Shown: positions 1,282 to 1,628 of the stretch, piece by piece | Numbering within the stretch: position 1 is the stretch's first letter | How the letters are laid out: each line of letters begins with the position of its first letter | Assembly: GCA_018692355.1 (NCBI GenBank) | Contig: JABHKE010000155.1 | Location: 1-35,429 of the forward strand | Origin: Fidelibacterota bacterium | Lineage (GTDB): Bacteria > Fidelibacterota > Marinisomatia > Marinisomatales > UBA1611 | Reading direction: 5' to 3' | Length of the DNA stretch: 35,429 nt | Notes under the pieces: model-generated | Seen by the model: the letters and a program-made list of their open reading frames with translations, nothing else | What the model was told of the DNA's origin: nothing | Database searches by the model: none | Translations under genes and position numbers: made by a program

Positions 1282-1527
1282 CTATCTACGACGTTTGCGA
1301 CGCCGTTGACGGCTTGCACGCGGATCGTTCCGCAATGCATCTATCCTGGCTTGCCTTTTAACGCGACGAACGGTTTTCTTTCTTGCTTCCCGTTTTGCGT
1401 CGCTTGGCTTTTCATAAAAGGAACGTGTCCGAATTTCTCGAAGAACACCTGCTCGTTCCCACATCTTTTTAAATCGACGCAGGGCACGTTCAAATGATTC
1501 CTTTTCTTTTACCTGGACTTCAACCAC
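1282..1527 (-). CDS. rpsU: 30S ribosomal protein bS21
   Basis: The 81-residue, highly basic protein contains the bS21 core [20 protein letters not shown] and ends in an Arg/Lys-rich tail (RQRRRKRRR). It is slightly longer than the roughly 65-71 residues typical of the family because of that tail. bS21 binds the 30S platform near the 16S 3' end, beside the anti-SD. The start codon is GTG at 1527. It is fixed by GGAGGTGAT ending 4 nt upstream, which matches the 16S 3' end over nine bases and is by far the strongest SD in the window. A perfect TATAAT lies about 70 bp upstream and a hairpin terminator follows. It lies downstream of ksgA, whose product also acts at the 16S 3' end. Confidence 0.96.
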
Positions 1528-1530
1528 TTA

Positions 1531-1539
1531 AATCACCTC
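1531..1539 (-). promoter_or_regulatory. Near-perfect Shine-Dalgarno of rpsU (GGAGGTGAT)
   Basis: On the minus strand GGAGGTGAT is followed by TTAA and the GTG start. Most other genes here have no purine-rich site at this position, so it is exceptional for the window. It suggests that rpsU translation depends on, and is regulated through, anti-SD accessibility. Confidence 0.85.
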
Positions 1540-1548
1540 CAAAGTGTA

Positions 1549-1617
1549 GTTTGTGGTTACTTGAATTAATTTTTATTTGCTTAAAAAAAGCTGGCGATTA
1601 TACCGGTTTGTGGTCAC
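1549..1617 (-). repeat. Pair of 12-nt direct repeats in the rpsU promoter/leader
   Basis: On the plus strand GTTTGTGGTTAC (1549-1560) and GTTTGTGGTCAC (1606-1617) differ at one base and are 57 bp apart. One overlaps the promoter spacer and the other lies in the 5' UTR just before the SD. An operator or an RNA element is possible; the function is unknown. Confidence 0.35.
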
Positions 1618-1625
1618 ACATCCTA
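1597..1625 (-). promoter_or_regulatory. Putative rpsU promoter
   Basis: The minus strand shows a perfect TATAAT (plus-strand ATTATA at 1597-1602) in the 100-bp gap between ksgA and rpsU. At 17-bp spacing the -35 position reads TAGGAT, a poor match to TTGACA, so the call rests on the -10 and its location. A 12-nt word, GTGACCACAAAC, fills the spacer and recurs with one mismatch in the leader. Confidence 0.45.
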
Positions 1626-1628
1626 GAC

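Follow-up and report, generated by a model that had tools for sequence, protein, structure and literature searches.

Why should one ribosomal protein gene carry an extended Shine–Dalgarno (SD) sequence in a genome where few genes seem to have one? This question is raised by rpsU on a contig of a Fidelibacterota bacterium (JABHKE010000155.1 of assembly GCA_018692355.1, analysed over its whole 35,429 nucleotides and hereafter called the window), which belongs to a draft genome of 2.05 Mb in 215 contigs. The gene occupies positions 1282–1527 of the minus strand and encodes an 81-aa product, identified as ribosomal protein bS21 by its match to PF01165 (E-value 6e-16, 58.3 bits, cut-off 27). Reading along the minus strand, GGAGGTGAT (1532–1540) is followed by TTAA and then by a GTG start codon (1527–1525), which places an extended SD complementary to the 16S rRNA sequence AUCACCUCC 4 nt before the start. 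With the 16S tail taken from a genome of the same genus (L099, ending in GGATCACCTCCTTTT; the window's own assembly contains no 16S), this pairing reaches −15.0 kcal/mol, an energy computed as a ViennaRNA duplex and not with free_scan. The SD and GTG start singled out in a preliminary description of this DNA are thus borne out. GGAGGTGAT is present once in the whole window and at least once in 23 of 100 shuffles of it; the 9-mer by itself is not rare, and it is the exact position ahead of a start codon that is rare.

Upstream of rpsU lies ksgA (PF00398; 1629–2396, minus strand), whose start has no SD (+1.2 kcal/mol). A functional link between these neighbours had been proposed, and it appears weak, a sigma-factor gene separating the two in another family of the order. 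There (L058, 6844–7698), the intervening gene is sigma-70-like by its translation, and it is missing from this position in the window. The 101-nt leader between ksgA and rpsU (1528–1628, minus strand) matches no Rfam family at gathering score; an S15-leader match of 18.2 bits, against a gathering score of 39.5, fell on the opposite strand and was dropped as due to chance.

SDs are scarce at the other genes of the window, where 24 further starts, including those of the ORFs described earlier as recJ, gcvP and a lipoprotein gene, score from +2.9 to −6.4 kcal/mol, and a TPR gene alone reaches −6. For the genome, we called genes on about 597 kb (29% of the genome), which yielded 402 genes, 400 of them scorable, using a crude caller of our own that agrees with the E. 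coli annotation on the share of SD starts (38.5% by either); an earlier caller with too strict a cut-off had given 220 genes only and was replaced. Energies of −6 kcal/mol or lower were found at 17.5% of these 400 starts versus 7.5% of mock sites (p = 2.5e-5), or 19% versus 6% for unambiguous ATG starts only, and at 45% of starts versus 10% of mock sites in E. coli with the same pipeline. Across the whole genome, GGAGGT-N4-9-DTG occurs 128 times and its reversed pattern 133 times, i.e. at chance level, and AGGAGG-N4-10-ATG occurs 49 times versus 29 for its reverse, a small excess of 20. Start scoring and motif counts thus agree that strong SDs are scarce genome-wide, and the genome is SD-poor, not SD-less. 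The preliminary description of a nearly SD-less gene set fits the 24 starts of the window, and needs partial correction for the genome, in which SDs remain above the mock level.

The best of the 400 called genes reaches −12.9 kcal/mol, compared to −15.0 at rpsU. Both rpsU and rpsR were absent from these calls and were scored separately; no start scored in this 29% of the genome equals rpsU, the nearest being rpsR (bS18) at −14.1, followed at a distance by the modest SDs of rpsF and rplI (about −7.7), so that rpsU exceeds all three within a sample that holds few ribosomal genes. We report ranks, since an exponential extrapolation modelled on that of McNutt et al. fitted poorly, real SDs falling within the fitted range. 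The rpsR SD, AGGAGGCTGAATAATG (L192, 10907–10922, on contig C104 of the window's genome G000), is the second strongest seen in the genome; it sits within the final codons of rpsF, where the rpsF stop and the rpsR start overlap, and the rpsF–rpsR region gave no Rfam match. Strong SDs on both rpsU and rpsR are also the pattern of Bacteroidia.

The guess that this DNA comes from Marinimicrobia proved right, the matches of ksgA being labelled Neomarinimicrobiota, Marinimicrobia or plain "bacterium", and the strong rpsU SD is kept in relatives as the preliminary description had anticipated. Among 57 genomes from 14 families of the order (family f15 excluded), 51 have an rpsU SD at or below −13 kcal/mol, the cut-off applied to Bacteroidota by McNutt et al. 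2023 (PMC9976891), and 55 at or below −12. The anti-SD is intact in the 16S of four relatives (L099 and three others). Hence, SDs are not outright common elsewhere in this genome, nor are relatives outright lacking the strong rpsU SD. The GTG start is found in all 31 rpsU genes sampled from the window's family, and families with ATG starts have rpsU SDs that are equally strong or stronger. Family f15, with genomes of 0.8–1.0 Mb, has lost the rpsU SD (+0.1 kcal/mol in nine genomes: L005, L006, L162, L165–L169 and L171), and the 16S is intact in one member. In one other f15 genome checked, rpsR retains an SD at −11.0.

SD use is low in the order and normal in deeper classes of the phylum. The AGGAGG-N4-10-ATG count minus its reverse is +3, +10, +36, +18 and +38 in five genomes of the same order (G001, G004, G007, G039 and G044, respectively), and −5 and −4 in two streamlined f15 genomes; among six deeper genomes it ranges from +52 to +122. 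Start scoring gave 45% versus 12.5% mock in G112 and 48% versus 12% in G075, both from deeper classes whose higher G+C inflates start and mock counts alike. Most rpsU genes of these deeper classes also have a strong SD (e.g. −16.3 in G112), with exceptions in f18, f19 and f25. Genomes of f25 often have two bS21 genes, and the two of G078 (L181, L182) differ in their SDs, extended in one case (−16.6) and modest in the other (−9.8). The strong rpsU SD is thus older than, or independent of, the fall in SD use, and since classes that use SDs have it too, the SD alone is no proof of anti-SD sequestration.

In the window's family (f1), the leader has a second feature, a predicted hairpin that would pair the start region with an upstream element. 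Its 5′ arm, AACCAC (1553–1558, minus strand), faces the 3′ arm GTGGTT (1522–1527, minus strand), which includes the start codon; the SD lies between the arms, and a small inner hairpin, CACTT/AGGTG (1534–1546, minus strand; about −2 kcal/mol), is predicted to cover part of it. Of 28 distinct family sequences, 26 retain the CCAC that can pair with the GTGG of the start region; its last base precedes the start by 26–28 nt (by 23 nt in G006), a variable distance, and its flanks are only about half conserved. MAFFT placed no gaps in these leaders, and the sequences were therefore aligned manually with CCACA and the SD as anchors, which favours the outer arm. In this alignment the consensus fold reaches −5.0 kcal/mol, whereas shuffling the columns gives −0.7 ± 1.1 and attains −5.0 in 5 of 500 cases, and outer stem pairs 1–5 are kept in 27–28 of the 28 sequences. 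When the upstream part is shuffled sequence by sequence, the mean fold z is a modest −0.84, and the 28 sequences contain little covariation: G020 changes stem pair 4 from C-G to T-A with pair 3 broken, and the genus g7 (G010, G020) breaks the stem. Stem pair 6, which had seemed to covary (A-T, T-A), was dropped, as 6 of 28 sequences have T-T mismatches there. Within its own genome, the start-codon pairing of rpsU ranks in the top 2% of the 400 starts, and a start codon faced by six complementary bases is seen at 16 of the 400 (4%), a background at which a single sequence says little. Families f2, f3 and f9 do not have such start-codon pairing, and the SDs of f2 and f3 are near −17. Taken together, this makes the f1 leader hairpin likely, if unproven. 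Initiation in Bacteroidia has been reported to prefer reduced structure, and a paired start codon could represent a barrier that strong SD pairing would overcome.

The bS21 protein itself differs at one position of interest. Tyr54 of bS21 reportedly stacks on A1534 and redirects the 16S tail, and its conservation has been described as unique to Bacteroidia. Indexed without gaps from a shared KPS motif, against an F. johnsoniae reference identical to chain z of 7jil, 55 of 59 proteins at the order level, including that of the window, have Arg at position 54; one has Pro, three short ones end before it, and none has Tyr. Chlorobia also lack Tyr54 and have strong rpsU SDs (PMC9976891). The protein is 76–88 aa long in the window's family versus 53–67 aa elsewhere in the order, and in the window's family it ends in a long Arg-rich C-terminal tail (1282–1400 in the window).

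We consider autoregulation by bS21, as in Flavobacterium, to be the best explanation of the extended rpsU SD, and a reasonably probable one. The SD would tie bS21 synthesis to pairing with the 16S anti-SD, on which most other messages would not rely. A 30S subunit lacking bS21, and perhaps also bS18, whose gene has a strong SD, would have a freer anti-SD and initiate better on rpsU, which would bring bS21 back; in family f1, the hairpin on the start codon may further discourage SD-independent initiation. We infer anti-SD masking, feedback and the role of the hairpin in Marinimicrobia, the feedback itself having been shown in Flavobacterium only. The earlier suggestion that the mechanism extends to this lineage thus agrees with the layout, its conservation and the scarcity of SDs, and less well with Arg in place of Tyr54 and with SDs above the mock level. 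Because SD use is reduced and not abolished, masking of the anti-SD is probably incomplete. The strong SD may also predate masking or be independent of it, given the strong rpsU SDs of SD-using deeper classes. A more specific version, which we regard as speculative and on balance improbable, is that f1 rpsU forms a two-part switch in which a start-hiding hairpin, with the extended SD in its loop, is opened only by bS21-lacking ribosomes with a free anti-SD, the masking having arisen with Arg54 separately from Bacteroidia.

The same SD might instead secure high bS21 expression from a non-ATG start, or offset the leader hairpin, with no feedback involved. The strong rpsU SDs of classes with ordinary SD use, the invariant GTG start of the 31 family members and the residual SD use across the genome are all consistent with this reading. 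However, families with ATG starts have SDs at least as strong, rpsF and rplI make do with about −7.7 kcal/mol, and the same layout in F. johnsoniae proved to be feedback (PMC9976891), and we therefore consider expression alone a rather unlikely explanation, although one to be taken seriously.

Two further readings of the SD were weighed. It could be a relic of an SD-using ancestor, without present function and on its way to being lost as in f15, where nine genomes are without it despite the intact 16S of one member; yet it has been retained in 14 other families amid little SD use elsewhere, and in SD-poor families it is stronger than that of E. coli rpsU (−8.5), which makes a relic very unlikely. 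Alternatively, the leader may be a structured regulatory element, for instance a temperature- or protein-controlled hairpin, which the strength of the SD merely serves to open. That CCAC and its pairing with the start codon are conserved in f1 would fit such an element, but f2, f3 and f9 do without this pairing, f2 and f3 nevertheless having SDs near −17, and no Rfam family matches at gathering score; we rate this as the most improbable of the explanations considered.

If bS21 autoregulation does operate here, initiation control by ribosomes lacking one protein would reach an uncultured marine phylum, beyond Bacteroidota. A phylum with both SD-using and SD-poor classes could also allow SD loss, anti-SD masking and rpsU feedback to be placed in order, a difficult task in Bacteroidia, nearly all of which are poor in SDs. 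McNutt et al. 2023, whose genome set comprised complete genomes only, do not mention Marinimicrobia in their main text (PMC9976891), and in the open-access literature searched a single paper contains both Marinimicrobia and Shine-Dalgarno, naming each of them once, which is weak evidence of novelty.

In F. johnsoniae, ribosomes without bS21 translate rpsU better (McNutt et al. 2023, PMC9976891), and the same loop has been predicted for much of Bacteroidota, including Chlorobia (PMC9976891). Autoregulation of this type would involve sequestration of the 16S tail by bS21 together with bS18 and bS6. The locus studied here shares with F. johnsoniae and Bacteroidota rpsU autoregulation (Jha et al. 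2021; PMC9976891) an extended rpsU SD of about −15 kcal/mol, an SD-poor genome, an anti-SD that is intact (here in relatives) and, as in several Bacteroidia orders, an rpsR SD. Loss of the rpsU SD in reduced genomes is likewise common to both, through Blattabacteriaceae in Bacteroidota and f15 in Marinimicrobia. Unlike the Bacteroidota system, it belongs to another, distantly related phylum, has Arg54 where Tyr54 is found there, and includes a predicted start-codon hairpin in the window's family; its other SDs are above the mock level, whereas those of Flavobacteriales are below it (PMC9976891), and a strong rpsU SD extends to SD-using classes of Marinimicrobia. Class Chlorobia (PMC9976891) resembles the present lineage in having a strong rpsU SD, in lacking Tyr54 and in genes that are otherwise SD-poor, and the mechanism is unproven there too; contact residues beyond Tyr54 were compared in Chlorobia, and Tyr54 alone in Marinimicrobia. 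E. coli K-12 rpsU also has an SD, but its genome is one where SD use is common, and the same scoring gives it only −8.5 kcal/mol. Overall, the rpsU of this marine lineage likely represents a variant, outside Bacteroidota, of a known mechanism, its function being inferred.
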